Shown here: positions 32,084-56,384 of the stretch, piece by piece
How positions within the stretch are numbered: position 1 is the stretch's first letter
How the letters are laid out: each line of letters opens with the position of its first letter
Assembly (NCBI RefSeq): GCF_020148005.1
Contig: NZ_JAGXFD010000001.1
Coordinates: 134,011 to 198,010, forward strand
Reading direction: 5' to 3'
From: Modicisalibacter tunisiensis
Lineage (GTDB): Bacteria; Pseudomonadota; Gammaproteobacteria; Pseudomonadales; Halomonadaceae
Length of the DNA stretch: 64,000 nucleotides
Translations under genes and position numbers: made by a program
Notes under the pieces: model-generated
The model's input: only the letters and a program-made list of their open reading frames with translations
Told to the model about the DNA's origin: nothing
The model's database searches: none

Positions 32084-33784
32084 ATGATGGGCCTTCCCCA
32101 TGCCGGCCGGTGGCGGTCACCGGCGAGGAGTCGTCCCCTGTCTCGAGGCCTGTTGATTCTTGTCGTCGTCGAAGGCTGGCTGCTCGCCCTGAGTCGCCTG
32201 GCCCCCGCCATGACCGGCGGCGGATGGCCGGCGCTCGAGGGGCTGTGGCTGGTCCTGGCGCTGTGCCTCGCCGGCCCCGGCCTGCGCCGGTGGCTGGCCT
32301 GGCCGGCGGCCTGCGCACTGGGGCTGGCGACGCTGCTGGCCCTGCTCGATGACCTGTCCCGACTGAGCCTGGGGCGCGCCTTCAACCCGCTGCTGGATGC
32401 CAGCCTCGTTGGCCCAGCCTACCATCTGATGGTCGATAATGTCGGTAAGTTCCTTGCGCTGCTGCTCCTGTGCGCCGCCGGGGCAGCCATCCTGGCGCTG
32501 ACCTGGGGCGGGGCGCATCTGCTGGGCCGGCTTCCGACCGCGACGAGCCGGCCACGACGCGGCGCGCTCGTCGCCCTGCTCGTGCTGTCGTTGCCCGTGG
32601 CGGCGTCGGGTCACGCTGCCACCCCTCTGATGACCCTGGTCATGCGCCACTGGCAGCAGGGCGTGGAGACCCGCCAGGCCTGGGCCGCCTTCCGGCAGCA
32701 GCTCGCCGACGGCCACGCCCGCCCGGCCGCGGCGCTGCCGGGGCTGGCCGGGCGCGACGTGAGCCTGGCCTTCATCGAGTCCTACGGGGTCTCGGCCCTG
32801 TTCGACCCGCGCTATGCGCCCGTCATCGCTCCCCGGCTGGCGGCCATGCAGCGCCGCTTCGACGCCGCCGGCCTGCACGTCGCCACCTCGCGGCTGACCT
32901 CGCCGGTGCAGGGCGGCCAGTCCTGGCTGGCCCATGGCACCGTCATCAGCGGACTGTGGCTGACCAGCCAACGGCATTACGACCTATTGCTGACGCGCGA
33001 GAGCCCGACCCTGATCGACGATTTTGGCCTCACCGGGCACAAGAGCGTGGCCATCATGCCGGCGATCACCGCGCCCTGGCCGGCCGGTCGCCAACTGGGT
33101 TACGACACCCGCCTGGCCGCCCGGGACATTCCCTACCGGGGGCCGGCACTCAACTGGGTAACCATGCCCGATCAATACACATGGCGGTTCTTCGCGGACT
33201 ACCGGCGCAGCCAGTCACGGCCCCTGTTCACCGAACTGGCGATGATCTCGAGCCATGCGCCCTGGACGCCGATTCTGCCGCTGCTGGATGACTGGGATGA
33301 CCTGCAGGAGGGGCGGCGCTTCGACCGCTGGGCGACGGCCGGGCCGGCACCGGAAGTGCTGTGGCAGGACGCGGGGGACGTGCGTCGCCACTATATTCGC
33401 GCCATCGACTATGCCCTGGCCGCGATGGCCGGCTTCGCCGAGCGCTACCTGGGCGAGCACCAGCTGCTGATCGTGCTCGGCGATCACCAGCCGGCCCCGC
33501 TGATCACCGGCGACAAGGCCAGCCGCGACGTGCCGATCCACGTCATCAGCCGCGACGCCGCGCTGATCGCCCGCTTCGAGGCGGCGGGCTTCCGGCCCGG
33601 CCTGTGGCCGAGCGACGCGCCGGCGAGCCGGCGCCAGGATGCGCTGCGCGGCCTGCTTCACCGGCTGTTCGGTGCCCGATCCCAGCAGGGCATCGCAGTT
33701 GGCGCTGACAAGGGGCTATCGAAGTGTTGTCGCCCGGGGGCGCCCGGTGGTTTATCAACGGCTGATCCGTCGACAGGTCTATGA
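32084..33784 (+). CDS. membrane-anchored sulfatase/phosphoglycerol-transferase-like protein
   Basis: A 566-residue protein (ATG at 32084 or 32087; no clear ribosome site). About 150 N-terminal residues hold four hydrophobic helices, and the rest is a periplasmic alkaline-phosphatase-superfamily domain. Metal-site features are FIESYGVSALFD, GGQSWLAHGTVISGL with the likely nucleophile, and VLGDHQPAPLIT (the DH metal pair), as in LtaS/OpgB-type enzymes. Because it is divergent from opgGH, addition of phosphoglycerol or similar groups to periplasmic glucans is an attractive inference; sulfatase activity is the alternative. The last codons and stop lie inside an interspersed repeat element, so the C-terminal tail may be repeat-derived. 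Confidence 0.8.
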   Translation: MMGLPHAGRWRSPARSRPLSRGLLILVVVEGWLLALSRLAPAMTGGGWPALEGLWLVLALCLAGPGLRRWLAWPAACALGLATLLALLDDLSRLSLGRAFNPLLDASLVGPAYHLMVDNVGKFLALLLLCAAGAAILALTWGGAHLLGRLPTATSRPRRGALVALLVLSLPVAASGHAATPLMTLVMRHWQQGVETRQAWAAFRQQLADGHARPAAALPGLAGRDVSLAFIESYGVSALFDPRYAPVIAPRLAAMQRRFDAAGLHVATSRLTSPVQGGQSWLAHGTVISGLWLTSQRHYDLLLTRESPTLIDDFGLTGHKSVAIMPAITAPWPAGRQLGYDTRLAARDIPYRGPALNWVTMPDQYTWRFFADYRRSQSRPLFTELAMISSHAPWTPILPLLDDWDDLQEGRRFDRWATAGPAPEVLWQDAGDVRRHYIRAIDYALAAMAGFAERYLGEHQLLIVLGDHQPAPLITGDKASRDVPIHVISRDAALIARFEAAGFRPGLWPSDAPASRRQDALRGLLHRLFGARSQQGIAVGADKGLSKCCRPGAPGGLSTADPSTGL

Positions 33785-33856
33785 GGAGGCGCTGTGAACC
33801 CTTCCCTGGGCGCTACCTACGCCATCCATGGCGTAGGACCCCCTCTTCGACCTGTC
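33772..33856. repeat. interspersed hairpin element, copy A
   Basis: Nested inverted repeats: outer arms GACAGGTC (33772-33779) with GACCTGTC (33849-33856), and a core TACGCCAT-CC-ATGGCGTA (33818-33835). Between left outer arm and core lies GGCGCTGTGAACCCTTCCC, shared almost unchanged with copy B at 56243-56384. The element covers the sulfatase-like stop codon and fills most of the 103-base convergent spacer before gbcB, where it could also work as a terminator. Confidence 0.8.
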
Positions 33857-33887
33857 CCCGGCGCCGCAGCAGTGGGTAAACTCCGCT

Positions 33888-34994
33888 TCAGTAATCCACC
33901 ACCAGATCGCCCTTGGGGCGACTGCAGCAGGACAGGATGTAGCCCTCGGCGATGTCCTCGTCGGTGATCCCGCCGTTGTGGTCCATCTCCACCTCGCCGG
34001 ACTTGAGCCCCACCCGACAGGTGCCGCAGATGCCCATGCCGCAGGCCTTGGGGATGTGCAGCCCCAGCTTGGAGGCCGCGGCATGCACCGTCTCGCCCGG
34101 CTGGATACGCACGCTCTTGCCGGTGCCGGTGAATTCCACCTGCACCATGTCGCTGTAGTCGAGATCCTCGGCTTCCGCCTCGGCCTGCTCGGCCAGCTCG
34201 CGCACGTCCTCGCGCACATCCAGCGGCGTGGCACCGAACGACTCCTGATGGTAGTGCGCCATGTCGAAGCCGTTGCTGCGCAGAATCTTCTTGACGGCGT
34301 TCATGTAGGGCGTCGGTCCGCAGCAGAAGATCTCGCGCTCGAGGTAGTCCGGCACCATCAGCTCGAGCATCGCCTGGGTCAGGAACCCCCGGTAGCCGGT
34401 CCAGGCCTCGCCGATGTCCGACTTGTTCTCGCAGACCACGTGCAGCTTGAACTCGGGCAGGCGCGAGAACATGTGCACCAGCTCGCGATGGAAGATCACG
34501 TCGCCCGGCGAGCGCGCGCTGTGGACGAACTCGACGTCAATGTTGGCATTGGTGTCGAAGAACCAGCGCGTCATCGACATCAACGGCGTGATGCCCACGC
34601 CGCCGGACAGCAGCAGCACCTTGTCGGCCGGGTGATCGATGGCGTTGAAGTCGCCCACCGGTCCGTGCACGGCGAGTTCGTCGCCGACCTTGAGGTTGTC
34701 GTGCAGCCAGTTGGACACCTTGCCGTCGGGCAGGCGCTTGACGGTGATCGAGAAGCTGTAGGGAATCGATGGTGAACTGGAGATGGTATACGAGCGCATG
34801 ATCGGCTCGCCCTCGATCTCCAGCTCCAGGGTGACGAACTGCCCGGGCTTGAAGAAGAACAGCACCGGCTGCTCGGCCATGAAGCAGAAGGTTCGCACAT
34901 CCAGGGTTTCCTGGATCACCTTGACGCAGCGCACCCGGTGGCGGCCGTTGGTCCAGGTCTGGGTGGTAACCGGGTTGAAGAAGTTCATTGTCAT
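33888..34994 (-). CDS. gbcB: glycine betaine demethylase, ferredoxin-reductase subunit
   Basis: A 368-residue cytoplasmic reductase passing electrons from NAD(P)H to the Rieske oxygenase GbcA. I chose ATG 34994 (MTMNFFNPVTTQTWTNGRHR); a longer frame upstream is arginine-rich shadow. Domains: FAD-binding barrel (RSYTISSSPSIPYSFSITVK, about 66-85), nucleotide-binding domain (LLLSGGVGITPLMSM) and a C-terminal plant-type 2Fe-2S ferredoxin (ACGMGICGTCRVGL, then CCSRPKG). The arrangement and length match Pseudomonas GbcB. It is divergent from gbcA rather than cotranscribed. Confidence 0.93.
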   Translation of the reverse strand: MTMNFFNPVTTQTWTNGRHRVRCVKVIQETLDVRTFCFMAEQPVLFFFKPGQFVTLELEIEGEPIMRSYTISSSPSIPYSFSITVKRLPDGKVSNWLHDNLKVGDELAVHGPVGDFNAIDHPADKVLLLSGGVGITPLMSMTRWFFDTNANIDVEFVHSARSPGDVIFHRELVHMFSRLPEFKLHVVCENKSDIGEAWTGYRGFLTQAMLELMVPDYLEREIFCCGPTPYMNAVKKILRSNGFDMAHYHQESFGATPLDVREDVRELAEQAEAEAEDLDYSDMVQVEFTGTGKSVRIQPGETVHAAASKLGLHIPKACGMGICGTCRVGLKSGEVEMDHNGGITDEDIAEGYILSCCSRPKGDLVVDY

Positions 34995-35368
34995 TGCTGT
35001 CTCTGCCTGCCGGATCGTGGGCTGCCGGAACCATGGCCACAAGGGCCGCGACGCCGCCCTCGACCTCGCCCCGAGGGATCGCCGTACCGCCAATTCTGGG
35101 TAGGGGCGCGCCGCGTCACTTGTCTGGCAACGACGCGCGCATGCCCATCAGGCCATGTGCCACCAGTGCCCGGGTGCCGTCACGTCGTCCTGAATGCCGG
35201 GCTGCGTCGCCTCCAGACAACCTCGTCCTCGACCGCTCCGCCACACTCGGCACAAGCCGAGGTGACAACAGGACGTCGCCCGCCGGTACCACGCCTCTCG
35301 ATTTCTCGACCCACACGACCCTAATCGCCGTCCTCGGGGGAGGCCGCGATGCATGAGGATTCCACGCC
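34995..35368. promoter_or_regulatory. divergent gbcB/gbcA regulatory region
   Basis: A 374-base spacer with no credible gene. It should contain both promoters and, by analogy with Pseudomonas, sites for the AraC-type regulator GbdR, but I could not identify a convincing site. CTCGGC-ACAA-GCCGAG (about 35248-35263) is a small hairpin near the gbcA side. No gbdR gene lies in the window. Confidence 0.4.
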
Positions 35369-36652
35369 ATGGACCTGATAGCCCAGACTGCCTTCGACGA
35401 CCCGCTGGCCAACGTCAAGGAGACCACCGCCAACCTGCTTCACGAACGCGATCGGCGTTTTTCGCTGCCCCAGGCGTTCTACAACGACCCGCGGCTGTTC
35501 GCCCTCGACATGCAGGAGATCTTTACCAAGGAATGGCTGTTCGCCGGCATGACCTGCGAGATTCCGGCCAAGGGCAATTTCCTCACCGTCGATGTCGGCG
35601 ACAATTCGGTGATCATCGTCCGCGGGGCGGAAGGCCGGATTCACGCCTTCCATAACGTGTGCCGCCATCGCGGCTCCCGACTCTGCGTCAAGGACAAGGG
35701 CAAGGTGGCCAAGCTGGTCTGCCCCTACCACCAGTGGACCTACGAACTCGACGGCCGACTGCTGTTCGCCGGCACCGACATGGGCGACGACTTCGACCTT
35801 GCGAGTTACGGGCTCAAGCCGGTGCACGTGCGCAGTGCCGGCGGCTTTTTGTTCATCAGCCTCGCCGAACAGCCCCCGGCCATCGAGGACTTCCTGGCCA
35901 CCCTCGAAACGTATCTCGAGCCCTACCGGATGGACGAGGTGAAGGTCGCCGCGGAATCGAGCATCGTCGAGCAGGCCAACTGGAAGCTGGTGATCGAGAA
36001 CAACCGCGAGTGCTATCACTGCAACGGCGCCCATCCGGAACTGCTCAACTCGCTGCAGGAGTTCGACGACACCGACGACCCGCGTGCGACCGAGTCCTAC
36101 AAGGCGCTGGTGGCGCGCAAGCAGGCCGACTGGGAGGCGGAAGCGGTGCCCTGGCGGCTCGCCCGCATCGGCAAGCGCAACCGCCTGACGCGTACCCCGC
36201 TGCTCGACGGCACGGTATCGATGACCCTGGACGGCCAGCCCGGCTGTCGCAAGCTGATGGGGCGGCTGACCAGCCCCGACATGGGCTCGCTGCGCATCCT
36301 CCACCTGCCCAACTCCTGGAACCACTTCATGGGCGATCACGCGGTGGTCTTCCGGGTCCTGCCGCTGGGGCCGCAGCGCACGCTGGTCACCACCAAGTGG
36401 CTGGTGCACAAGGATGCCGTCGAAGGCGTCGACTACCAGCCCGACGAGCTGCGCCGGGTGTGGGATGCAACCAATGACCAGGACCGCCGCCTGGCCGAGG
36501 AGAACCAGCGGGGCATCAACTCCGTGGCCTACCAGCCTGGGCCCTATTCCGAAACCTACGAGTTCGGGGTGATCGATTTCGTCGACTGGTACAGCGAGCG
36601 CATGCTGTCCAATCTCGGCCATGCCCCCGGGCTGCACCTGGCTCGCGGCTGA
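35369..36652 (+). CDS. gbcA: glycine betaine demethylase, Rieske oxygenase subunit
   Basis: A 427-residue Rieske non-haem iron oxygenase that removes one methyl group from glycine betaine as formaldehyde, giving dimethylglycine. The 2Fe-2S ligands are in CRHRGSRLC (Cys98, His100) and CPYHQW (Cys118, His121). The mononuclear iron site is in ENNRECYHCNGAHPEL (His217, His222). Length and motifs match Pseudomonas GbcA. The start follows GAGGATTCCACGCC. A strong terminator lies beyond the stop. Carnitine or stachydrine oxygenases are relatives, but the paired GbcB favours betaine. Confidence 0.95.
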   Translation: MDLIAQTAFDDPLANVKETTANLLHERDRRFSLPQAFYNDPRLFALDMQEIFTKEWLFAGMTCEIPAKGNFLTVDVGDNSVIIVRGAEGRIHAFHNVCRHRGSRLCVKDKGKVAKLVCPYHQWTYELDGRLLFAGTDMGDDFDLASYGLKPVHVRSAGGFLFISLAEQPPAIEDFLATLETYLEPYRMDEVKVAAESSIVEQANWKLVIENNRECYHCNGAHPELLNSLQEFDDTDDPRATESYKALVARKQADWEAEAVPWRLARIGKRNRLTRTPLLDGTVSMTLDGQPGCRKLMGRLTSPDMGSLRILHLPNSWNHFMGDHAVVFRVLPLGPQRTLVTTKWLVHKDAVEGVDYQPDELRRVWDATNDQDRRLAEENQRGINSVAYQPGPYSETYEFGVIDFVDWYSERMLSNLGHAPGLHLARG

Positions 36653-36697
36653 CACTTCCCGCCGAAAGCTCCCTTCCCGTCTCGCGCACGGCATTCC

Positions 36698-36723
36698 GCC
36701 CGACCCCAAGGTCGGGCTTTTTT
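36698..36723 (+). terminator. rho-independent terminator of gbcA
   Basis: GCCCGACC (36698-36705), loop CCAA, GGTCGGGC (36710-36717), then TTTTTT. Perfect 8-bp stem, 45 bases after the gbcA stop. Confidence 0.95.
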
Positions 36724-36744
36724 GTGGATTTCCCTTCCACACCC

Positions 36745-36771
36745 TAAACGATGCCGCCCCTCGGCCGATAT
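36745..36771 (+). promoter_or_regulatory. FliA (sigma28) promoter of the chemoreceptor gene
   Basis: TAAA (36745-36748), exactly 15 bases, then GCCGATAT (36764-36771). This matches the flagellar sigma28 consensus TAAA-N15-GCCGATAA at all but the final base. It lies about 190 bases before the chemoreceptor start, directly after the gbcA terminator. The leader between (to 36959) contains an unused-looking GGAGG and no gene. Confidence 0.8.
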
Positions 36772-36959
36772 TCCTCCGAAGGAGGTAACGATCCCGCGTC
36801 GTTACCGCCTGTTCTTGACCCCACGCGGGGCAGTCACGCCAGACAAATCAACAACAAGGCGAGATTTCCGTCACCGGCTTCTCAACGTGGTGACATGGAA
36901 ACCTCTGCCGAAACCGATGCTCACAACGTAAATTCCTTGATGCAGGAGTCTCACTTGTC

Positions 36960-38711
36960 ATGAGTCGCAATTTCCTGACCCGACGCTGGTCATCGCTCGG
37001 CCTGCAAGCCAAGGTCATGACCCTGGTTCTGGTGCCCCTGATGCTCGTCACCAGCGGCCTGGTGGCCCTCACCATCCTCGATCGCATCGAGGACAACCAG
37101 AAGACCCTGGCCGAAGAGCGCCAGATGCTCATCGACGCACGCAAGCAGTCGGTCAAGAGCGTGGTCGAGACCGCCAAGTCGGCGATCGCGCCGATCGTCG
37201 CCGAGGCCGGCGCCGACGACCAGGCCGCCATGGAGCGCGCCAAGGACATCCTGCGCCGGCTGCGCTTCGACGGTAACAACTACGTCTTCGTCTACGATTA
37301 TCAGGGCACGAACCTGGTCCTGCCCCACAACCGCAAGCTGGAAGGGACCGACATGCTGGACAAGGAAGACGCCCAGGGGCACTTCCTGGTCAAGGACATG
37401 ATCCAGGTCGCCAAGGACGGCGGCGGTTTCTATCAGTACCTGTGGCCCAACCCCGATACCCGACAGCCCGAGCCCAAGTACTCCTACGCCGCCGGTATCC
37501 AGAAATGGGGCTGGATGCTCGGCTCCGGGGTCTATGTCACCGAAATCGACCAGGCCATGGCGGAGATTCGTGCCACCGCCGCCGCGGAACTGCGCACGGC
37601 GATCATCCGGGTGGTCCTGCTGGGCCTGGGCATGCTGGTGATCGTGGCGCTGGTGGTCGGCTACCTGGTCCGGCGCACCGTGCGGCCGCTGCGCGAGACC
37701 GCCGAGGCCATGAAGGACATCGCCAGCGGCCGGGGCGACCTGACCCGGCGCCTGCCGGTACGCAGTGACGACGAGATCGGTGCGCTGGCGACCCAGTTCA
37801 ACGCCTTCGTCAGCCGCATGCAGGAAACCCTGCGCGAGGTTCGCGCCAGCACGCGCAGCGTGAGCCAGGCCGTCGGCCACATCGCCCACAGCAGCCAGGA
37901 GCTCTCCAGCCGCACCGAACAGGCCGCCGCCAACCTGCAGCAGACGTCTTCCTCCATGGAGGAGATCACCGCCACGGTCAACCACTCCTCCGAGTCGGCC
38001 GCCCAGGCCAACCAGCTGGTGCAGTCGACCAGCCGCGTGGCGCAGGACGGCGAAAACGCCATGGGGCAGGTCGAGCAGACCATGCGCGACATCAACGAGT
38101 CGGCCGAGAAGATCAGCGAGATCATCACCATGATCGACTCGATCGCCTTCCAGACCAATATCCTGGCGCTCAACGCCTCGGTCGAGGCGGCCCGCGCCGG
38201 CGAACACGGCCGCGGCTTCGCGGTGGTCGCCGAGGAAGTCCGCTCCCTGGCCAGCCGTTCCAGCGAGGCCTCCAAGGAGATCCGCGAGCTGATCGACACC
38301 TCGACGCGGCATACGCAGACCGGTGCCGACCTGGTGCGCAACGCCGGCGAAACCATGCGCGAGATCGTCACTAGCGTGACCCGGGTTTCCGACGTCATCG
38401 CCGAGATCAGCGCCGGTGCCAAGGAGCAGAGCAGCGGCATCGGCCAGATCAACACGGCGGTCGCCGAGATGGACACCATGACCCAGCAGAATGCGTCCAT
38501 GGTCCAGCAGACCTCCATGGCCGCCGCGGACATGCGCCATCAGGCCGAGCAGCTGACCCGACTCGTCAACCACTTCGTGCTTGGCGACGACACCGCGCCC
38601 GCCGCCCCCGCACTGGGCTCGACACACCGCGAACCCGCCGCCCTGCCCTCGGCCCGCGAGTCATCCCGTTCCCGAACCCAGCAGGAGGAGGACGCCTGGG
38701 AGTCCTTCTGA
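36960..38711 (+). CDS. methyl-accepting chemotaxis protein with a single-Cache sensor
   Basis: A 583-residue inner-membrane chemoreceptor. The start follows CAGGAGTCTCACTTGTC. A first helix (about 17-42) is followed by a periplasmic sCache_2-type domain (about 45-205, with [20 protein letters not shown] and [16 protein letters not shown]), a second helix (about 207-230), HAMP, and the cytoplasmic signalling hairpin with [20 protein letters not shown]. The C-terminus ends DAWESF, a CheR/CheB-docking-like WxxF pentapeptide. Expression by FliA is predicted. The ligand is unknown; the gbcA neighbour makes a quaternary amine worth testing. Confidence 0.94.
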
Positions 38712-38715
38712 ACCG

Positions 38716-38741
38716 ACAGCCCGCCCTGACCGGCGGGCTGT
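38716..38741. terminator. bidirectional hairpin between convergent genes
   Basis: ACAGCCCGCC (38716-38725) and GGCGGGCTGT (38732-38741) make a perfect 10-bp stem with a six-base loop, exactly between the chemoreceptor stop and the GGDEF-EAL stop. No long T-run on either strand. Confidence 0.6.
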
Positions 38742-38748
38742 ACGCGCG

Positions 38749-41118
38749 TCACGATACTGCCGGCCGGCTCGCCTGCGCCGGCAGCTCGGCGAAGAAGGCC
38801 GCCCATGCCAGCGGTCGCTGGAAATAGTATCCCTGCAGGAAATCCGCCCCCATGGCGTGGAGAATCTCCACCTCCTCTTCGGTTTCCACCCCCTCGATGA
38901 CCACGCCGCGCTGCAGCCGCTTCACCAGATAGAGCAGCCCGTCCATGATGCCGCGAGCCTCCCGGGCGTCGCGATCGGTCAGCCCGGCGATCAGCGAGCG
39001 GTCAATCTTGATGCTCGAGAAGGGAATCTCCTTGAGGAAGCTGATCGAGGTGTAGCCGGTGCCGAAGTCATCCAGGGCCACCCGGAACCCCGCCTGACGC
39101 AGCCGGGTGATCTCGGCGGTCAGGGTCGAGCGGTCGAGCAGCTTGACGTGCTCGGTCAACTCGAAGGAAATGCGCCCCGGGTCGATACCGTGGCGAGCGG
39201 CCAGGGCCAGCGCCGTGTCCACGAAACGCCGCGTATAGAGCTGCTTGGGCGAGATGTTCAGCGACAGGTAGTCCAGTTGCGCCAGCGCGGGCTCGTCGGC
39301 CAGCCGCGAGAGCATCGTCTCCAGCGTCCAGTCGCCGAGCTTGATGATCAGGTCGCTGGCCTCGGCGATGGGAATGAACACGCCGGGGCTGATCGGCCCG
39401 CGCTCGGCATGCTCCCAGCGCAGCAGCACCTCGCCGGCGCACCAGCCCCGGCGCTTGAGCGAGTGGATCGGCTGGATCGCGAAGCTCAGGCCTTCCCCGC
39501 CCGCCGCGAGCGCCTGTTCCAGCAGGTTGGAAAGCTCGGCGTGATACGTCTGGGCATCGAGCATGGCATCGGTGAACTCCACCAGGCTGTCCTCGCGGTC
39601 TTCCTTGGCGGCATACATGGCGGCATCGGCACACTTGAGCAGTTGCACAGCGTTCTGGGCATGCAGCGGATAATGCGCGATGCCCATCGAACAACCCAGG
39701 GTGTGCGCATTGCCGCCAACCTCAAAGGGGCGCTTGAGCGAGCGCAGCAGCAGTTCGGCGAGTTCCGGATAGGGCGTTTCCCGGCCGCAGAGCACCAGAA
39801 ACTCGTCGCCGCCCATGCGCCCGGCCACCGGCTGGCGCCCCACGCTGTCACGCAGGCGCGTGGCGAAAAGACGCAGCAGCGTATCGCCCTGGGCGTGGCC
39901 GAAGGCGTCGTTGACCTCCTTGAAGCCATTGAGGTCGATGTAGACTACCGTGAACGGCTCGCCGTCCCGAATGCGCTCATCGAGCATGGCGAGCATCGCC
40001 TGGCGGTTGTAGAGGTTGGTCAGCGCATCATAGGTCGATTCGTGCCGGACGCGCCGGATCTGGCGCTGCTTGATGCGCAGGTGAACCCAGGCTCCCAGGG
40101 CACCGGCGATCAGCAACAGGCTCAGCCCGCCGATCAGCCACCCGGCCCAGCGCGGCATCAGCCCCGGCAACTCTCCCAGCACCTTGACGTCCACGCCCTC
40201 GGGCAGCCGGTTCAGCAATTGCGGTTCCAGGGAGAGCTGCTGCGGCACCGTCAGCGGAGACAGCGGATCTGCCGCCTTCGAGACACGCTGGGCCACCTGC
40301 TGGGAGAGACTCGCCACATTGATGAACGAGCCCCCCACACAGCCGAAGGGCGTCAGGTAATCCAGAGCGCAGAAGAAGTCGCCCAGCTGCCGACGAAAGT
40401 GCGCCGCCAGCGCGTCGGCGGAATGCATCGTCGACAGCTGCAGCGGCGCATCCAGCGCGACAACCGTGTAACCCGAGGCGTCGAAGTCACTCGCGTAGAG
40501 CGCGCGCCAGGTGCGGGTCGCCACCGTTTCGAAGCCCATCGCCTCCACATCGGGCATGACCTGACGCCGAAGGCGCAGACCGGCGCGGGACGCCGAGTGC
40601 ACCAGCAGCAGCCGGTTGCGGCCGGCGATCTCGCGCGCCAGCTGCACGGTATCGATGACCGCCGGGCGGGTGTTGGCGAGAATCACTCCCTGATGCGCCC
40701 CGGCCTCGGCCAGTTCGGGATCGTTGACGCCGATGGCGATCGGATGGCGATCGGGAAACCAGTTCGTGTACTCCCGATAGAAGCGCAGCGCCGGGTCATC
40801 GAGCAGGATTACCCGATCGTACTGTGTCAGGCGATTGCCGTTGCTGTAGAGCGCGAAGTTCCTCAGATAACGCGCACGCGGCAGGTCCCGGGCGTCCAGG
40901 TAATGGACGCGCACCCGGTTGACCTTGCCGCGCAGGTAGTAGGTCAGGTTGCTGACCAGGCTGTCCGTCCACTCGTCGCCGTCATGATAGGACGCCAGGA
41001 TCAGCACGTTGCTGACCGGGTGCGCGGTCGACACGGCCGGGGGCGGCACCCGAGCGAGCCCCGGCTTCGCCAGGGCCAGCACCGTCAGGCCGAAAACAAG
41101 AAGAAGCCCAGCTTTCAT
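38749..41118 (-). CDS. membrane GGDEF-EAL protein with periplasmic ABC-receptor-like sensor
   Basis: A 789-residue inner-membrane c-di-GMP enzyme. I chose ATG 41118, giving a clean signal/anchor (MKAGLLLVFGLTVLALAKPG); ATG 41142 is possible, but longer starts run into the -10 element. Residues 35-315 form a periplasmic domain of the ABC-sugar-receptor type (NVLILASYHDGDEWTDSLV). A helix at about 325-345 leads to GGDEF (intact GRMGGDEF, no RxxD I-site) and an EAL domain with EVLLRW, DDFGTGY, IKIDR and IEGVETEEE all intact. Both cyclase and phosphodiesterase activity are possible. The ligand is unknown. Confidence 0.92.
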   Translation of the reverse strand: MKAGLLLVFGLTVLALAKPGLARVPPPAVSTAHPVSNVLILASYHDGDEWTDSLVSNLTYYLRGKVNRVRVHYLDARDLPRARYLRNFALYSNGNRLTQYDRVILLDDPALRFYREYTNWFPDRHPIAIGVNDPELAEAGAHQGVILANTRPAVIDTVQLAREIAGRNRLLLVHSASRAGLRLRRQVMPDVEAMGFETVATRTWRALYASDFDASGYTVVALDAPLQLSTMHSADALAAHFRRQLGDFFCALDYLTPFGCVGGSFINVASLSQQVAQRVSKAADPLSPLTVPQQLSLEPQLLNRLPEGVDVKVLGELPGLMPRWAGWLIGGLSLLLIAGALGAWVHLRIKQRQIRRVRHESTYDALTNLYNRQAMLAMLDERIRDGEPFTVVYIDLNGFKEVNDAFGHAQGDTLLRLFATRLRDSVGRQPVAGRMGGDEFLVLCGRETPYPELAELLLRSLKRPFEVGGNAHTLGCSMGIAHYPLHAQNAVQLLKCADAAMYAAKEDREDSLVEFTDAMLDAQTYHAELSNLLEQALAAGGEGLSFAIQPIHSLKRRGWCAGEVLLRWEHAERGPISPGVFIPIAEASDLIIKLGDWTLETMLSRLADEPALAQLDYLSLNISPKQLYTRRFVDTALALAARHGIDPGRISFELTEHVKLLDRSTLTAEITRLRQAGFRVALDDFGTGYTSISFLKEIPFSSIKIDRSLIAGLTDRDAREARGIMDGLLYLVKRLQRGVVIEGVETEEEVEILHAMGADFLQGYYFQRPLAWAAFFAELPAQASRPAVS

Positions 41119-41209
41119 TGCGAGCCTGCGGGATCGATGCATGAGACAAGCGGCGAGGATCACCCGCCGTCTGCATGAGAGATGGCATGCCGTATGGCAA
41201 AAGCCGCGC

Positions 41210-41215
41210 ATTATA
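41210..41215 (-). promoter_or_regulatory. -10 element of the GGDEF-EAL gene
   Basis: On the minus strand CCTATAATG gives a perfect TATAAT (plus-strand 41210-41215), about 90 bases before the chosen start. The -35 region is poor (TGGCAT at 17 bases). Confidence 0.4.
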
Positions 41216-41328
41216 GGCCGCTGCCACCGGCGATGCCACGCTTTCAGGGTGCGCGATATACGAGCCCTGAAATCAGGATTTCGCCGCCATCACGCATCGA
41301 ACAACCGCTCCCGCTGCTGCGGCCTGCA

Positions 41329-48267: not shown

Positions 48268-48768
48268 GGCAAGGTCTCCTGGGAATCAGGCCACCCTGGC
48301 GGATGCAGGGTGATGTGGCTTGTTGTTCTACCCGTTCTGCCTGACGCGGCAGTACGTCCCGCTGTTCACAGTAGCCGAGTTGCGTTGGCTGACCACTGGC
48401 GTCGTCAACGCTTACGGCCACCCCCGATGCCGCCCGACACCCGCCAACGGGCCGCCGGCCACGCCCCGTGCGGCCCGCTGTGGTCATACCAGTTATCCAG
48501 CCAATTCAACCTTTTAGACCAAAGCACGACCTTCCGCGGCCGCTTCTGTGCCCGGCCCGGGGCCCCGCGAGAGAGAGCCATGAACGCCACCGGGGCATTT
48601 CCCGCCCTTGCGGGCCGGCTTTCCTGCCGACTCGGCCACCGCCGGGCACGCCCCGTCGGCAGGCCGGGGTATACTGCCGGGTAGCCGATCCGCCACCATC
48701 CACCCTTGCAAAAGCACAAGACGAGCGGCCGTTCGAAGCCGCCTTCGCATTTACCAGGGAGCGTTATC
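48268..48768. other. intergenic stretch upstream of the TRAP operon and the EAL gene
   Basis: A 501-base divergent spacer. Open frames here have no ribosome site and look like chance. I searched by eye for a sigma54 element (GG/GC spacing) for the TRAP operon and a FliA element for the EAL gene and found none I can support. Confidence 0.4.
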
Positions 48769-49557: not shown

Positions 49558-49689
49558 CCGGCGGCCGGGCGGCAAGGCAGCGCAAAACAATGAGCGTTTA
49601 TATAATTATCAGGCTATGGTATTTTGGCGCGACGAGACCCCGCGCTGTCGCGGGTTCAGGGATTCGACTCGAGAACACATCGCCATACC

Positions 49690-50679
49690 ATGCCCATGTC
49701 ACGCTACGTCACGCCGCTCGCCCTGCTGTGTACCGGCCTGCTCGCCTCGCCGTTCGCCGCCGCGACCGACCTCTATTCGCTCAAGGTCAGCAACGACCTG
49801 TTCTCGTCCAGCGAGGATGGCCACTACTCCAGCGGAGTCGAGCTCAGCCGCACCACCCTGCCCGAGGCCGACCACTGGTCGCGGCGCTTCGCCGACTGGC
49901 TGCCCGGCTGGCAGGCCGACGATGTCGATGCCGTCAGCTATCACCTGGCGCATCAGATCTACACTCCCAACGACATCAGGCGCCGCCATCCACGCGGCGA
50001 CGATCGCCCCTATGCCGGGGTGCTGCTCGGCGGGGTCTCGTTCTTCGCCGATGAGGAACACGATGGCTGGCGCGAGGCCTCGATGCTCGACCTGCAGCTC
50101 GGCTGGGTGGGCCCCGCCGCGGGCGGCGCCGTGCTGCAGGACCGCGTCCACAAGATGACCGGCAGCGACGACCCCAGGGGCTGGAGCCACCAGCTCGACA
50201 ACGAGCCGCTGCTCGGGGTCGCCGGCAACAAGGCCTGGTGGTGGCAGGACCGGCTGGCCGGGCTGGAGTGGGAGTACGGTCCCAGCACCTCTTTTCAGGT
50301 CGGCAACCTCTACGACTACGTGGGCGGCGGTGGGGCGATTCGCTTCGGCGAGGGTCTCGACAAGAGCTTCGGTATCCCCAGCGTCGCCCCGGCCCTGGGC
50401 GGACGCCAGGGCTTCCGGGCCGGTGGCGGCTTCGGCTGGTACGGTTTCCTCGGGGTCGAGGGGCGCTACATGGCCCACAACCTGCTGCTCGACGGCAACT
50501 CCTTCAAGGACAGCCCCAGCGTCGACCGGCGCGAATGGGTGGGCGACCTGAGCGCCGGCGCCGTCATCAGCTGGGACAACTGGCAGATCGCCTTCACCAG
50601 CGTCTGGCGTACCCGCGAATTCGAGAGCCAGGACAGCGCCGACCACTTCGGCTCGATCACCCTGTCGAAATGGCTGTAG
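49690..50679 (+). CDS. LpxR-like outer-membrane lipid A deacylase (DUF2219)
   Basis: A 329-residue outer-membrane beta-barrel. The start is ATG 49690 or 49696; ribosome site weak. The signal peptide ends near residue 25 (SPFAAA). Salmonella LpxR removes the 3'-acyloxyacyl chain of lipid A using Asn/Asp, Ser and His. Here Asn35-Asp36 (VSNDLF), Ser47/Ser48 (HYSSGVEL) and His154 (DRVHKMTG) fit those positions, and DDRPYAGVLLGG is the family motif. The C-terminal aromatic tail (ITLSKWL) fits a barrel. A TATAAT-like -10 lies at 49601-49606. Confidence 0.88.
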   Translation: MPMSRYVTPLALLCTGLLASPFAAATDLYSLKVSNDLFSSSEDGHYSSGVELSRTTLPEADHWSRRFADWLPGWQADDVDAVSYHLAHQIYTPNDIRRRHPRGDDRPYAGVLLGGVSFFADEEHDGWREASMLDLQLGWVGPAAGGAVLQDRVHKMTGSDDPRGWSHQLDNEPLLGVAGNKAWWWQDRLAGLEWEYGPSTSFQVGNLYDYVGGGGAIRFGEGLDKSFGIPSVAPALGGRQGFRAGGGFGWYGFLGVEGRYMAHNLLLDGNSFKDSPSVDRREWVGDLSAGAVISWDNWQIAFTSVWRTREFESQDSADHFGSITLSKWL

Positions 50680-50716
50680 CGACCGGCGTCTGCCGGCGAG
50701 GCGGATCGTCGCGAAC

Positions 50717-52009
50717 CTAGCCGATCCCGACCCGGCCGCGGCCGGCCTGCTTGCCGCGATACAGGGCCCGATCGGCGGCGGCGATCAGTGCCTCGGCGCT
50801 CGCCTCGCCACCGCGGCTCGCGGCGACGCCGAGGGTCAGGGTAGGACGCCGGGGATCGCTCCGTGCCGACTGGATGACCCGCTCGCAGAGACGCTCGGCG
50901 ATCTGGCGGGCCTCCTCGTGGCCGGCGCCGGGCAGCACCGCGAGGAATTCGTCGCCGGCGTAGCGCCCCACCTGGTCATCGCCACGCAGCTGGCTGCTCA
51001 GGACCTGCGCCACCCAGTTCAACGCCTGATCCCCCGCCGCATGGCCGTACTGATCATTGATGGTCTTGAAACGGTCGACGTCGATCATCAGCACGCCCAC
51101 GCTCCCCTGGGTGGCGGCACTCGCGGCCAGGGCCGCCTCGAGTGCCGCCAGGATTCCCCGGCGATTGGGCAGGCCGGTGAGCGCATCCTGGTTGGCGGCA
51201 TCCTCGGTGACCCGCTTCCAGGCCACGAAGTGACGAGCCATGGCATTCAGGTAGCCGGCCACGGCCCCCAGCTCGTCGCCGGCGTCCGTGTCGGCGCGCG
51301 CCGTGAGATCGCCCGCGCCGAGCCGCTGAACGGTCCGCCCCAGGGCACGCACCGGGCGAACGATGGAGTGGACGATCAGCACGAGCCCCGCGGTCGCGAT
51401 CAGCAGTGTCACTCCCCAGGCACCGACCAGCCACTCGAGCTGGCGCTGCTGGGTCTGGACGGCCCGCGCCGCCCGTCGCTTGATGGCCGTCGACAGATGG
51501 GTCTGGACCTGCTGCAGATCACCGATGGCGGACGCGAGCCGCCGGCGGACACTGGCAAAGCCCGGCGTGTCACCGGCCAGGTGCAGGGGACGGGCCTGCT
51601 CGACCAGCCCCTCGATGGCCGGCCGGGCCGACTGCCAGGCGGAACGTGCCCGGGCAACACTCTGCGGCGGCAGGTCGCGATCGGATGCGGTGCCGGCGAG
51701 CTGCGAGAACAGCCGGTCGATGGCCCCGGTCAGGCCCCCGTAGTCGGGCACGGACTCGCCGGTCTCCGCCGCCAGGACATCGGTCAGGGCGCGCTGCAGG
51801 TCGTACTCGAGGGTGGCCAGCGGCACCAGCAGCGTCACCGCCTCCTCCACGGAGCGATGCAGTCGGGCCTCCTGACGCTCGAGCACCAGCACGCTGACGA
51901 CGATCAGCACCGTCATCGGCACCACCAGCACCGCCACCGCCAGCGCCAGCCGTTTTCCCACCGAGAGCCGCCGCAGCAGCGACTCGACCTTGCACAATGT
52001 TCGCTTCAT
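50717..52009 (-). CDS. membrane diguanylate cyclase with HAMP domain (AGDEF variant)
   Basis: A 430-residue inner-membrane protein. I chose ATG 52009 (MKRTLCKVESLLRRLSVGKR); the longer frame lacks a ribosome site. A helix at about 22-43 begins a periplasmic four-helix sensor (to about 195), a second helix (about 197-220) leads to HAMP (VRPVRALGRTVQRLGAGDLT), then a GGDEF domain. The signature is RYAGDEF, with Ala for the first Gly; some AGDEF enzymes remain active. RGDD five residues earlier is an intact I-site. It converges with the LpxR-like gene. Confidence 0.92.
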   Translation of the reverse strand: MKRTLCKVESLLRRLSVGKRLALAVAVLVVPMTVLIVVSVLVLERQEARLHRSVEEAVTLLVPLATLEYDLQRALTDVLAAETGESVPDYGGLTGAIDRLFSQLAGTASDRDLPPQSVARARSAWQSARPAIEGLVEQARPLHLAGDTPGFASVRRRLASAIGDLQQVQTHLSTAIKRRAARAVQTQQRQLEWLVGAWGVTLLIATAGLVLIVHSIVRPVRALGRTVQRLGAGDLTARADTDAGDELGAVAGYLNAMARHFVAWKRVTEDAANQDALTGLPNRRGILAALEAALAASAATQGSVGVLMIDVDRFKTINDQYGHAAGDQALNWVAQVLSSQLRGDDQVGRYAGDEFLAVLPGAGHEEARQIAERLCERVIQSARSDPRRPTLTLGVAASRGGEASAEALIAAADRALYRGKQAGRGRVGIG

Positions 52010-52110
52010 GGATCTCGCGGACTCGCTTCTTGCCACGCCGGGCGTGTTCAGGACCGGGGCCCAATTGGGCCGCATCCCCGAGGTCATGGCAAGTCGAGTC
52101 CGCGCACCGC

Positions 52111-52923
52111 TCAGCGCCGCAGCACGCCCTCTTCATGAAGCAGCTTGAAGATCGCCTCGGCGCCCTGCTCGGGCGTCGCGTCGGTCAGCACCTGCCCGCC
52201 GCCGCCTTCCGCCTTGGCGGCGGCGGCCTTGAAGCGATCCCGCGCCGAGGCGGCCTTGACCACCTTGAGCCGCTTGGGACGCGGCCGCGCGGGCTCCAGC
52301 GTCCAGTCGGCCAGCGCCGTGTCGGGGCGCGACGCCTGTTCGCTGACAGCCAGCGCGCCGCGCCGGGCCGGGCCGAAGGCACTCTGGCGAGGAGCGGGTG
52401 CCGCCTCGTCGACGGTGATCACCGCCGGCAGGCGAAGGCGCAGCCGGCGACGCTGGCCGCGCGGCAGCGCCTGCAGCAGGGTGACATGCTCCGGCTCGAC
52501 GCGTTCGATCTCGGCCAGCCCGGTGACGATCGGCCAGCCCAGCGACTCGGCCAGCAGGTAGGGCAGCAGCCCCGAGCCCTCGCCGGTTTCCGCCCGGGTG
52601 CCGCACAGCAGCAGCCGCGGCGGAGCCTCGCGCAGCGCGTCCGTCAACGCCGGCAGGACATCGGCATCGCCGGCCTGCTCGATCAGCGTCAGCGCCTCGA
52701 AGCCCATGCCCAGATAGCCCCGCAGGGCGGCCTCGCTGTCGGTCTCGTGGTGCCCGGCGTGAATCAACTGCACCCGGGCATGGTCCAGGGCGAGCGCCGC
52801 CTCCACGGCACGGGCATCCTGATCGGCCCGCCGGGTCCGGCCGGTCACCGGATGGCGGCCGATCGAGACCAGCACCGCCACGTCCAGCGCCCCGGCGGCG
52901 TTCTTCGTCGTCTCATGCGGCAT
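52111..52923 (-). CDS. etfB: electron transfer flavoprotein beta subunit (dimethylglycine operon)
   Basis: A 270-residue ETF small subunit. GGAGG lies eight bases before ATG 52923 (a GTG just upstream is the alternative). Its start overlaps the etfA stop by 11 bases. The N-terminal DVAVLVSIGRHPVTGRTRRAD and GTRAETGEGSGLLPYLLAES resemble the AMP-site domain, and the C-terminal arm RPRPKRLKVVKAASARDRFK reaches the partner subunit. It is diverged from housekeeping FixA/EtfB and belongs to the DgcAB-linked type. It should take electrons from dimethylglycine/sarcosine demethylation. Confidence 0.9.
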   Translation of the reverse strand: MPHETTKNAAGALDVAVLVSIGRHPVTGRTRRADQDARAVEAALALDHARVQLIHAGHHETDSEAALRGYLGMGFEALTLIEQAGDADVLPALTDALREAPPRLLLCGTRAETGEGSGLLPYLLAESLGWPIVTGLAEIERVEPEHVTLLQALPRGQRRRLRLRLPAVITVDEAAPAPRQSAFGPARRGALAVSEQASRPDTALADWTLEPARPRPKRLKVVKAASARDRFKAAAAKAEGGGGQVLTDATPEQGAEAIFKLLHEEGVLRR

Positions 52924-54202
52924 CACGCTTGCCTCCGTCTTCCTGGCGCGCCTGCTCGACGCGCGTCACCAGTGCCTCGAGAATCGCCGCGCTGTCGCCG
53001 ATCACGGCCAGATCGGCCCGCTTGATCATGTCGCAGCCGGGGTCGACGTTGACGGCCACCACCTTGTCGCAGCGCTGGATCCCCTGCAGGTGCTGGATGG
53101 CGCCGCTGATGCCCACGGCCACGTAGACCCGCGCGGTCACCCAGGTGCCGGTGGCGCCCACCTGGCGGTCGCGCGGCATGAAGCCGTCGTCCACCGCCAC
53201 CCGCGACGCCCCTTCGGTGGCGCCGAGCGCCGTGGCGGCCCGGTGGTAGCCCTCCCAGTCGCGGATGCCGTTGCCGGCGGCGAGGATGAACTCCGCCTCG
53301 CCCAGCGCCACGCTGGCCGGATCGACGGCCACCGCGCCCAGGTCCTCGACCCGCGAGAAGGCCTCCGGCAGGGCCGGCGGCGCGAGCGGTCGCGCCGCAT
53401 GCACGGTCTCGCTGACCGGCTCGGCACACTCCGCCAGCGCCAGCGCCAGCGCCACCCGCGGCAGGTCGCGCCGGATGTCGAGCGAGCCCGCCGCGCCGCG
53501 GCAGGTGGCATGCCAGCCCAGGGCGCTGCCGGCGTCCGGCTCGATCTGCCAGAGTCCGGCGGCCGGTCGCTCGCCCAGCCGCGCCGCCAGACGGCGGCCA
53601 AGCTCGCCACCGCCCAGCGCGGAGTCCGGCAGCAGCCAGTGACGCGGTGACAGCGACTCCTCGATGGCACTCAGCGCCGCGATCCGCGCCTCGGGCGCAT
53701 AGCCGGCAAGGCGCGGTTCATCGAGGGTGACCAGGCGATCGACGCCGGCCTCGGCAAAGCCGCTCTCGCGGGCCTCGCCGAAGACGATCGCCACCACCGC
53801 CCCGGGGGCCTGCGGATCGGCATCGGCCAGCCGGCGGGCCAGCCCCAGCAGGTCACGGTCGTGGGACGACAGGCGGCCCCCGGCGAGGTCGGGCACCACC
53901 GCCACCAGGAACGCCGGCGACTCGATCTCGACACGCTGCCGGGCCGGCTGGCCGTCGCCACGGTCGCCCGCCGACGACCGGCCGGCGCCCTGCTGCACGC
54001 CACTGCGATCGATGCGCTTGATGCCGTTGGGGCCGGTGAAGCCGACGGCATGCGGATCGCGGCGTATCCGGCCGTTGGGGCCCGGCCACTCGCTGGGCGC
54101 GGCGCCCTCGCCCAGCTCGGCGAGCACGTCGAGATGCTCGGGGTGCAGACGGTTGCGGGCGATCCACTCCTTGCGGGGATCGCGACGAACGATCTCGCTC
54201 AT
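52913..54202 (-). CDS. etfA: electron transfer flavoprotein alpha subunit (dimethylglycine operon)
   Basis: A 429-residue ETF large subunit, longer than the usual 310 because of an N-terminal extension of about 100 residues (MSEIVRRDPRKEWIARNRLH, then a low-complexity region). The C-terminal FAD-binding domain is clear: VGATGTWVTARVYVAVGISG followed by AIQHLQGIQ, then VAVNVDPGCDMIKRADLAVI. Start overlaps the dgcB stop (ATGA). With EtfB it should accept electrons from the DgcA/B demethylase. The extension lies in the same position as in Pseudomonas relatives, as I recall. Confidence 0.92.
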   Translation of the reverse strand: MSEIVRRDPRKEWIARNRLHPEHLDVLAELGEGAAPSEWPGPNGRIRRDPHAVGFTGPNGIKRIDRSGVQQGAGRSSAGDRGDGQPARQRVEIESPAFLVAVVPDLAGGRLSSHDRDLLGLARRLADADPQAPGAVVAIVFGEARESGFAEAGVDRLVTLDEPRLAGYAPEARIAALSAIEESLSPRHWLLPDSALGGGELGRRLAARLGERPAAGLWQIEPDAGSALGWHATCRGAAGSLDIRRDLPRVALALALAECAEPVSETVHAARPLAPPALPEAFSRVEDLGAVAVDPASVALGEAEFILAAGNGIRDWEGYHRAATALGATEGASRVAVDDGFMPRDRQVGATGTWVTARVYVAVGISGAIQHLQGIQRCDKVVAVNVDPGCDMIKRADLAVIGDSAAILEALVTRVEQARQEDGGKRDAA

Positions 54203-56169
54203 GCGGCCTCCTCCTCGGTGACACGCCGCCGGTCCTTCGCCGGCGCACTCTCGTCCAGCGCATCGGCGACCAGCTCGGCGATATCCTTGACCACGGCGCG
54301 GTCCTCGGCCACCACGCCCTCGAGCATGGCGGTGCACTGCGGGCAGCCCACCGCGACCAGATCGGCGCCGGTCTCGCTCACGTCGTTCATGCGCATGTCG
54401 GGGATCCGCTGCTTGCCGGGGATGTCGGTGATCGGCGCGCCGCCGCCGCCGCCGCAGCAGCGCGACCGGTAGCCGGAACGCGCCATCTCGACCCGCTCCA
54501 CGCCGAGGGCGTCGAGCACCGCCCGCGGCGCGGCGTACTCGCCGTTGTAGCGGCCCAGGTAGCAGGGATCGTGGTAGGTCACGCGGCCGAGTCGGCTGGC
54601 CTTGAGTGACAGCCAGCCGGCCTCGAGCAGCTCGTTGATGTAGGTGCTGTGGTGGCTGACCTCATAGTTACCGCCCAGCTCGCCATACTCGTTGGCCAGC
54701 ACATGGAAGCTGTGCGGATCGCAGGTGACGATGCGATCGAAGCGGTACTGGGCCAGGGTGGCGATGTTGCGGCGCGCCAGGCTCTGGAAGGTCGCCTCGT
54801 CGCCCAGCCGCCGCGCCACGTCGCCGCTGTCGCGCTCCTCGTTGCCGAGCACCGCGAAATCGACCCCGGCGGCACGCAGCACCTTGACCAGTGCCCGCAG
54901 GGTGCGCTGGTTGCGCATGTCGAAGACCCCGTCGCCCAGCCACAGCAGCACCTGGGCCTCGCCGCGCTCGGCCATCAGCGGCAGCTCGAGGTCCGCCGCC
55001 CAGTGCAGGCGCGAACCGGGATCGAAGCCGCCGGGATTGTCGGTGGCGATCAGGTTGTCGAGTACTTCGGCACCCTTGTTCGGCGTGTTGCCGTGTTCCA
55101 GGGTCAGAAAGCGGCGCATGTCGACGATGGCATCGACGTGCTCGATCATCATCGGGCACTCCTCGACGCAGGCGCGGCAGGTGGTGCAGGACCACAGCGT
55201 CTCGGCGTCGACCAGCGCCGTGCCCTCGCGGGCGACGATCGGCCCGTGGGGGTCGCCGGCGTGCTCGCCGACGGCCTTGCCGGGATACGGCGAACCGGCG
55301 TAGGCGGCATCGCTGCCGCCCGCCATGCCCACCACCATGTCCTGGACCAGCTTCTTGGGATTGAGCGGCTGACCGGCGGCGAACGCCGGGCAGACTGCTT
55401 CGCAGCGCCCGCACTGCACGCAGGCGTCGAAGCCCAGCAGCTGGTTCCAGGTGAAGTCGGCGGGCGTCTCGACGCCCAGCGGCGCCTCGGCATCGTCGAG
55501 ATCCAGCGCCTTGAGCCCCGTGGAACGCCGTCCCGGACCGGCCGCGGTGGAGAACCGCTCGGCCCGGCGATGAAAGGCCAGATGCAGGGCGCCGGCGAAG
55601 GCATGCTTCATCGGCCCGCCCCAGGTCATGCCGAACACCAGTTCGGCCAGCCCCCAGGCCACCGCCGCGGCAAGCAGCACCGCGACCAGCCAGCCACCGG
55701 CGTCGGGGGGCAGCACGCCCACCGCCGGCAGGGTGGCCACGAAGATGCCCAGCGAGAACGCCATCAGGCTCTTGGGCAGGCGCATCCAGGGACCCTTCGA
55801 CAGCCGCGCCGGCGGGTTGATCCGGCGGCGGGCGACGAACAGGCTGCCCACGAACATCGTCGCGCTGGCCGCCAGCAGCAGCCAGCCCAGCACGCCCTCG
55901 GCCAGGCCCAGGCCATGGACGACGATCGCCAGCGCCATGGCGGCGACGAAGCCGCCGGCGGTGGCCACGTGGGTGCTGGACATCACCTTGTCGCGCGCCA
56001 CCACGTGGTGCAGGTCGACCAGGTAACGGCGCGGTACCGCGGCCAGGCCGCGGATCACCGGCACCGGTGAAGGACGCCCCTGACGCCACAGGCGAATGCG
56101 CCGCACGGCGCCGATTGCCGCCAGTGCCAGGGCGGAGAAGATCAGGATCGGCAGGAGGATATCGAGCAT
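54199..56169 (-). CDS. dgcB: dimethylglycine catabolism iron-sulfur membrane protein
   Basis: A 656-residue inner-membrane protein. ATG 56169 follows GAGGTGAGCGAG. Five or so helices fill residues 5-220. The cytoplasmic part has two 4Fe-4S motifs (CVQCGRCEAVCP and CTTCRACVEECP) and a pair of heterodisulfide-reductase-type cysteine motifs (DPCYLGRYNG to RCCGGGGGAP; GCPQCTAML). This is the layout of Pseudomonas DgcB, which works with DgcA in demethylating dimethylglycine to sarcosine and passes electrons onward. It is coupled to etfA by a four-base overlap. A hairpin repeat separates it from dgcA. Confidence 0.94.
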   Translation of the reverse strand: MLDILLPILIFSALALAAIGAVRRIRLWRQGRPSPVPVIRGLAAVPRRYLVDLHHVVARDKVMSSTHVATAGGFVAAMALAIVVHGLGLAEGVLGWLLLAASATMFVGSLFVARRRINPPARLSKGPWMRLPKSLMAFSLGIFVATLPAVGVLPPDAGGWLVAVLLAAAVAWGLAELVFGMTWGGPMKHAFAGALHLAFHRRAERFSTAAGPGRRSTGLKALDLDDAEAPLGVETPADFTWNQLLGFDACVQCGRCEAVCPAFAAGQPLNPKKLVQDMVVGMAGGSDAAYAGSPYPGKAVGEHAGDPHGPIVAREGTALVDAETLWSCTTCRACVEECPMMIEHVDAIVDMRRFLTLEHGNTPNKGAEVLDNLIATDNPGGFDPGSRLHWAADLELPLMAERGEAQVLLWLGDGVFDMRNQRTLRALVKVLRAAGVDFAVLGNEERDSGDVARRLGDEATFQSLARRNIATLAQYRFDRIVTCDPHSFHVLANEYGELGGNYEVSHHSTYINELLEAGWLSLKASRLGRVTYHDPCYLGRYNGEYAAPRAVLDALGVERVEMARSGYRSRCCGGGGGAPITDIPGKQRIPDMRMNDVSETGADLVAVGCPQCTAMLEGVVAEDRAVVKDIAELVADALDESAPAKDRRRVTEEEAA

Positions 56170-56242
56170 CTCGCTCACCTCATGTTCGGAACCATAAGCT
56201 GGGGGATTCGCTTCGCCACCATGCATGCCGCCGGGCTGATCC

Positions 56243-56384
56243 GGGGGCAGGCCTTCGCGAGGGCGCTGTGAACCCGTCCCTGGACGCTACCTTTGCCATC
56301 TGACCGCCATGGATGGCGGAAATGCCGGAATGGAAAGGAACACTTTCCGGCCATGGCAAAGGACCCTCGCTACGCCCTGCCCCC
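56243..56384. repeat. interspersed hairpin element, copy B (expanded)
   Basis: Homologous to copy A at 33772-33856. Outer arms GGGGGCAGG (56243-56251) with CCTGCCCCC (56376-56384), next GCGAGGG (56257-56263) with CCCTCGC (56364-56370), core TTTGCCAT (56292-56299) with ATGGCAAA (56353-56360). The conserved block GGCGCTGTGAACCCGTCCC lies in between. The core loop holds 53 bases instead of two, itself folding into CCGCCAT-GG-ATGGCGG (56304-56319) and CCGGAA/TTCCGG (56325-56350). It fills most of the dgcA-dgcB spacer (56170-56433). Confidence 0.8.

Follow-up and report, generated by a model that had tools for sequence, protein, structure and literature searches.

An intergenic MITE-like repeat of Modicisalibacter tunisiensis with paired GGA stem-loops as putative CsrA sites

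What kind of element leaves nearly the same sequence block at two places in a bacterial genome, set between arms that differ from copy to copy and still pair? The window in which this question arose is a stretch of 64,000 nucleotides from the Modicisalibacter tunisiensis genome (3.55 Mb, G000 below; other G-numbers denote the relatives compared). A first-pass annotation described there a two-copy interspersed element with compensatory changes in its stems, taken to suggest selection both for a fold of DNA or RNA and for a sequence that is recognised, and likened it to REP/BIME elements. Both copies and all of the arms that it quoted lie where it had placed them, and the block common to the copies has two matches in the window, each with 0 mismatches, against a chance expectation of 0.04 matches with up to three mismatches allowed. 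Folded on the strand that it had read, both copies surpass 200 of 200 shuffles (z of -5.4 and -4.1). Copy 1 covers a stop codon, as was claimed, and the placing of copy 2 between dgcA and dgcB agrees with the DgcB-like and DgcA-like domains that Pfam matches give to the flanking genes; the names DgcA and DgcB are our assumption from domain content. In window coordinates the features are as follows.

33686..33762, family-like sequence beyond the core of copy 1, CAGGGCATCGCAGTTGGC..., including AGGGCATCGCAGTTGGC and GGGGCTATCG
33763..33862, GGA strand minus and model strand plus, copy 1 as matched by covariance model R1 (117.4 bits, E 5.0e-21; contig 167773-167872)
33772..33779, outer arm GACAGGTC of copy 1
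33782..33784, plus strand, stop codon inside copy 1, of the upstream ORF 32153-33784
33799..33810, minus strand, GGA-loop stem-loop CCC-AGGGAA-GGG of copy 1
33821..33832, minus strand, GGA-loop stem-loop GCC-AUGGAU-GGC of copy 1
33849..33856, outer arm GACCTGTC of copy 1
33888..35093, minus strand, FAD/NAD-binding oxidoreductase ORF with a Fer2 domain, upstream of copy 1 as read on the GGA strand
54199..56226, minus strand, DgcB-like ORF (DUF3483 + 4Fe-4S + CCG), downstream of copy 2 as read on the GGA strand
56237..56387, GGA strand minus, copy 2 as matched by model R1 (151 bp, 91.1 bits, E 2.0e-15; contig 190247-190397)
56243..56251, outer arm GGGGGCAGG of copy 2
56274..56283, minus strand, stem-loop with CAGGGACG, the sole GGA hairpin counted on the minus strand of copy 2
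56300..56350, nested insert of 51 nt within the hairpin 2 apical loop of copy 2
56376..56384, outer arm CCTGCCCCC of copy 2
56434..58731, minus strand, DgcA-like ORF (Oxidored_FMN + Pyr_redox_2), upstream of copy 2 as read on the GGA strand

The plus-strand ORF ending in copy 1 has no Pfam match. Copy 1 is degraded in G002 and was not seen at the aligned G011 site; the family-like sequence next to it, perhaps a truncated second unit, is partly present in G002 and likewise not seen at the G011 site. The match to copy 2 owes its length to the nested insert, which the first pass had missed, as it had the further outward reach of many copies, which form units of ∼145-180 bp. Comparison with relatives suggests that the DgcB-like ORF more likely starts at 56169 than at 56226, and the best named relative of its protein is from Modicisalibacter coralii (90% identity).

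The gap before the DgcB-like gene contains a model match in 1 of 80 fetched relatives (20 of them Halomonadaceae by title), namely a Halomonas metagenome bin. Quite different hairpins were seen by eye in the dgcA-dgcB gap of other species (20 of the 80 gaps inspected). At five of these loci (L232, L233, L240, L245, and L246, ∼2750-3010) they belong to AAGCTGGAAG- or AGCTGTAAGC-type repeats. In two species (L234, ∼2835-2925; L296, ∼2795-2885) the gap contains a GGCC-AGGGAT-GGCC hairpin loop, which might represent a GGA-hairpin element of its own.

A repeat family with covarying stems

A pattern search of the whole G000 genome returned 46 matches at up to two mismatches against 2 in a reversed control, and at least 4 of the 30 matches fetched (L020, L025, L027, and L029) are not the repeat. 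Model R1 was built from 22 copies, leaving out four insert-bearing copies, the non-repeat matches, and overlapping duplicates, and recovers 43 copies in G000 at E 1.2e-10 or better, both window copies among them; this may be a lower bound because 150 of 2663 candidates were scored. The element is thus far from a two-copy one, with at least 43 copies in this genome, and the genome-wide covariance search that the annotation had proposed bore it out in finding many copies with covarying arms. In the 22-row alignment, comprising four helices, 16 of 27 pairs have both partners changed and 95.4% of cells are paired, whereas control structures slid along the alignment pair just 29-56% of cells. Four of five measures of compensatory change were reached by none of 500 shuffles; the fifth, the number of further pair types, was reached by 379 of 500 and shows no excess. 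Compensatory change in the stems of the repeat is real, and we regard the family as solid, as we do its covariation and its loops.

The 43 copies reach at most 12 nt into called genes, the coding fraction of the sampled loci being 0.855, and 10 of the 43 lie between divergent genes. Relatives of model R1 occur in at least 19 other genomes among 274 sampled in the class, a lower bound because filters were strict and at most 14 candidates were scored per genome. Beyond chromosomes, 1 of 72,556 plasmid records had a match, a 1.83-Mb Halomonas replicon, and none of 50,697 phage records did. In G029 and G027 copies stand as inverted (head-to-head) pairs ∼100 nt apart. Inspected by eye, their outer arms are as long as ∼28 bp and differ in sequence from every other copy, yet are still complementary. 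No published description of the repeat was found by text or sequence-letter search, in which subscription journals are thinly covered.

Intergenic, hairpin-forming, present in many copies, and with GTAG beside the hairpin in Halomonadaceae copies, the repeat has clear likenesses to REP/BIME elements moved by a RAYT transposase, and the search for a RAYT gene that the first pass had advised gave one Y1_Tnp (PF01797) match in G000. The same search detected none in G011, G008, G012, and G007, which hold 39, 31, 20, and 14 copies, respectively, and it is on this ground that the RAYT/REP reading is disfavoured. By eye, GTAG does not persist in the copies of G029 and G027, and the length of 145-180 bp and the two-hairpin plan are unlike the REPs listed in the accessible part of PMC2817692. 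A REP/BIME identity, to which the annotation had likened the repeat, is very improbable, given a RAYT undetected in several copy-rich relatives, a GTAG that by eye is lacking in G029 and G027, and the other architecture.

Paired GGA stem-loops on the opposite strand

The first pass had read one strand; the near-invariant signal of the family is carried by the other, and consists of two adjacent stem-loops with ANGGAN-type loops. The proposed combination of a folded form and a recognised sequence is supported in both its parts, with the recognised sequence better read on this opposite (GGA) strand. The loops are usually closed by C-G, a closing pair that is invariant in the 22-row alignment; loop positions 2 and 6 vary freely and A, G, G, and A rarely, with N often G or A instead of a pyrimidine.

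Hairpins were counted from sequence and a simple stem rule, namely a three-pair stem, in which G-U counted as a pair, around a loop containing ANGGAN or AGGAN. The matches counted were those passing threshold, minus seven weak reverse-strand self-matches and one duplicate, and represent 43/43 known copies in G000, 24/39 in G011, and 26/28 in G029, and at E 1e-6, 25/25 in G023 and 20/27 in G021. Exactly two GGA hairpins were found in 117 of 133 insert-free copies from these five genomes and 13 class-survey or Rfam-hit loci (G000 28/34, G011 22/23, G023 15/17, G021 19/20, G029 21/26; survey and Rfam-hit loci 12/13). The remaining 16 fail the count; exceptions in the loop include GTA (L117), GGC (L127), and GGG (L228), and in some copies the loop register is shifted. 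Distant members have an apical hairpin of other sequence, for example GACAGGACGTC, mostly still exposing GGA. Among the 120 insert-free copies of the five genomes, 105 have at least two hairpins on the GGA strand, whereas on the opposite strand none has two and 5 have at least one; one GGA hairpin is found in 1.8% of shuffled sequences. The distance from GGA to GGA is 22-23 nt in 110 of the 117 two-hairpin copies (22 nt between starts in copy 1 of the window). Pairs of sites for CsrA prefer a spacing of ∼18 nt.

The orientation of the GGA strand relative to genes is biased. In gaps between co-directional genes of G000, G011, G021, and G023 it is sense in 54 copies and antisense in 23 (P = 0.0005; by genome 20:9, 11:4, 7:7, and 16:3, one G011 copy called inside a gene being left out), and among non-Watson-Crick cells read on this strand G-U outnumbers A-C by 74 to 47 (P = 0.018), both P values being optimistic because the copies are related. 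The G-U excess is absent in G021 (8 G-U vs. 11 A-C), and in G029, many copies of which are in inverted pairs, sense and antisense are equal (11:11). Genes were called with a home-made caller, retrained separately for G029, the first version of which gave a bias of 12:10 with 2 of 43 copies inside genes, and which was replaced and retrained before the final count because that version had misassigned the strand of the DgcA-like gene. These sequence statistics support the reading of the GGA strand as a putative RNA, and a recognised sequence made of two ANGGAN loops on that strand points to RNA and CsrA, not to a transposase alone.

In the 20 sense cases of G000 the core begins 31-84 nt after the stop codon, and for every one of the 33 copies outside divergent gaps a stop codon is found within 84 nt. 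Such positions would suit hairpins at 3' ends or between cistrons that block exonucleases or terminate transcription independently of CsrA, their GGA loops being shared by common descent, as would the different hairpins seen by eye to fill the dgcA-dgcB gap elsewhere. A stabiliser, however, needs no constant loop, yet ANGGAN is kept even where the apical hairpin has a different sequence, and the 10 copies between divergent genes also sit poorly with a 3'-end function, so that we judge this explanation improbable. No T-run was evident in the copies inspected by eye, and independent rho-type terminators were rejected on that basis.

The nested insert bears on the same loops. Copies of this long type make up 9 of 43 in G000, 8 of 25 in G023, and 1 of 24 in G011, with none among 20 in G021 and 26 in G029. 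At two loci (L133 and L114 vs. L342 and L343) G000 and G002 are identical over 180 compared bases except for the 51 nt, which are placed between GCCAT and CCATGGC. The insert itself forms two hairpins and occupies the same loop position in the same orientation in many copies (gain and loss being unpolarised); an exact match to its core occurs in 23 of 376 loci (some overlapping), always at the repeat position. It removes a GGA loop on one strand and brings an AUGGAU hairpin on the other, leaving the nine insert-bearing G000 copies with one GGA hairpin on the GGA strand.

CsrA, the candidate partner of these hairpins, prefers unpaired ANGGA in short hairpins, and sponge RNAs expose such hairpins, according to the accessible text of a review (PMC7366521). 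By that description and the accessible part of a second source, the repeat has the sequence character of a CsrA target, namely paired ANGGA in short hairpins (PMC7366521; PMC4333381). G000 encodes one CsrA, of ordinary sequence by eye; CsrA was found in 38 of 38 genomes searched, repeat-bearing or not, and its co-occurrence with the repeat thus tests nothing. The sequence argues strongly for CsrA as the probable partner of the GGA-strand hairpins.

Among known RNAs the closest in plan is TwoAYGGAY of Rfam 15 (RF01731, threshold 43 bits), which also has two adjacent AYGGAY-type stem-loops inside a long outer stem. Rfam gave no match on the window at gathering score, and RF01731 found none of the 43 G000 copies; at relaxed thresholds four G000 loci, of 12 loci scanned, again gave no TwoAYGGAY match. 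With at most 54 candidates scored per genome, RF01731 scored above threshold in 2 of 38 genomes (G027 and G029) and below it in G010 and G016. One G029 copy passes the gathering score with 43.5 bits and two more fall below, all on the GGA strand. Despite the same architecture the repeat thus falls outside formal TwoAYGGAY membership, as 0/43 G000 copies pass, and it differs in being a high-copy, turning-over, intergenic element, whereas the Rfam type is cis-regulatory. MicroRNA, snoRNA, and Yersinia-sRNA models hit in the relaxed scan (four G000 loci and eight of relatives) were each below gathering score and were taken as hairpin noise. Sponges of the CsrB/RsmZ type are dedicated single-locus sRNAs; the repeat differs in having two predicted sites per copy, dozens of copies, and no known promoter. 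What it shares with them is several ANGGA-exposing hairpins, as described in the review text accessible to us (PMC7366521).

Turnover of whole units

Across nine orthologous copies of G000 and G002 the core differs at 15 of 901 sites, and the flanks have 157 differences in 3266 intergenic sites and 1026 in 24499 coding sites, so that cores diverge about one-third as fast as flanking DNA; a tenth pair consists of different copies and contributed flanks only (136/3052 and 958/23227 without its rows), two shared copies found later were left out, and shared cores were selected by aligning. Five of the six loop changes in the nine pairs are at N positions and one is on GGA (positions by reading).

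Of the 50 G002 copies 27 were examined; 10 of these continue in alignment into a G000 copy, 13 lack a counterpart in G000, and 4 lie opposite a different copy. The G000 site was read for 10 of the 13, and in each the whole unit is absent, several sites having a few unrelated junction bases (unpolarised); the other 3 matched none of the G000 loci that bear copies. Eight presence/absence sites differ in length by 145-180 bp, and no target duplication was evident by eye at sharp-junction sites between the two genomes. Many copies end in the terminal repeats AGGGCWATYGC, and a second subfamily has other ends (by eye). In the four gaps with different copies (L345/L115, L349/L121, L352/L127, and L392/L113), those of G000 and G002 are in opposite orientation, which would be rare under random re-use of 1000-3000 gaps (P 0.005 or less); at one of them G000 is the changed genome because G002 and G011 share the same copy. 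A four-copy G000 locus compared with G002 has one copy shared, one internally deleted there, one matched by a different copy that is oriented alike, and one absent. Insertion into hairpin loops was tried as a rule behind the unique arms, comparing 9 junctions with 11306 intergenic positions (fractions 0.017-0.786), and is not claimed because the tendency is weak.

The presence or absence of whole units brings the repeat close to MITEs. QMITE2 of Coxiella, according to the part of its description available to us, is hairpin-forming, 150-190 bp long, present in ∼50 copies per genome, and found mainly in 3' untranslated and intergenic regions (PMC5896051). It has direct repeats of 7-11 nt, of which none is evident in the present repeat, and the word CsrA does not occur in the accessible text (PMC5896051). 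The repeat could accordingly be purely selfish DNA, in which a transposase would recognise the hairpins as single-stranded DNA, with the GGA loops, rather than being CsrA sites, as the signal that it binds. Whole-unit presence or absence at the 10 aligned G000 sites, the terminal repeats, the precise nesting of the insert, and the head-to-head pairs of G029 and G027 are all as this would predict. The sense-strand bias and the one-sided G-U excess are harder to attribute to DNA, as are loop variation mostly confined to the two N positions of ANGGAN and the slower divergence of shared copies; further, no mover was found, a Y1 transposase being undetected in several copy-rich genomes. On balance a purely selfish element appears unlikely, though it is the foremost of the three alternatives.

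A candidate paired CsrA module that moves

The explanation that we favor, and consider probable on sequence grounds, is a MITE-like intergenic repeat of ∼145-180 bp that would carry a paired CsrA-binding RNA module on its GGA strand. We predict that RNA of this strand folds into a stem presenting the two adjacent ANGGAN stem-loops and that CsrA docks on both loops via its two binding faces, so that every copy that is transcribed would offer CsrA a pair of sites, for the most part in RNA of 3' untranslated regions or between genes. A copy would then alter the stability or translation of its transcript, and dozens of copies together could soak up CsrA, while whole units would be gained and lost by a mobile mechanism. 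A sponge or regulon-wiring role is plausible from the sequence. It is a more tentative possibility, on which we place limited weight, that the mobile repeat constitutes a distributed Csr system, with paired CsrA sites scattered behind genes, the Csr regulon rewired, CsrA titrated by copy number, and the 51-nt satellite, seated in the GGA loop, switching single copies down on the GGA strand.

TwoAYGGAY has been proposed to bind CsrA, in the accessible part of its source (PMC4333381), and the repeat gives this predicted motif a multi-copy natural system for a simple CsrA-binding test. For relatives of this salt-loving bacterium, a review table in the accessible text has “unknown” as the Csr partner sRNA in Halomonas anticariensis (PMC7366521), and the table of a 2026 preprint, likewise seen in part, has the CsrA pathways of Halomonas hydrothermalis as “uncharacterized” (PMC12889724); the repeat is a candidate for the partner in H. 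anticariensis. If the distributed reading is true, mobile repeats with ready-made regulator sites would offer genes a direct route into a post-transcriptional network, and copy number itself would become a regulatory variable.
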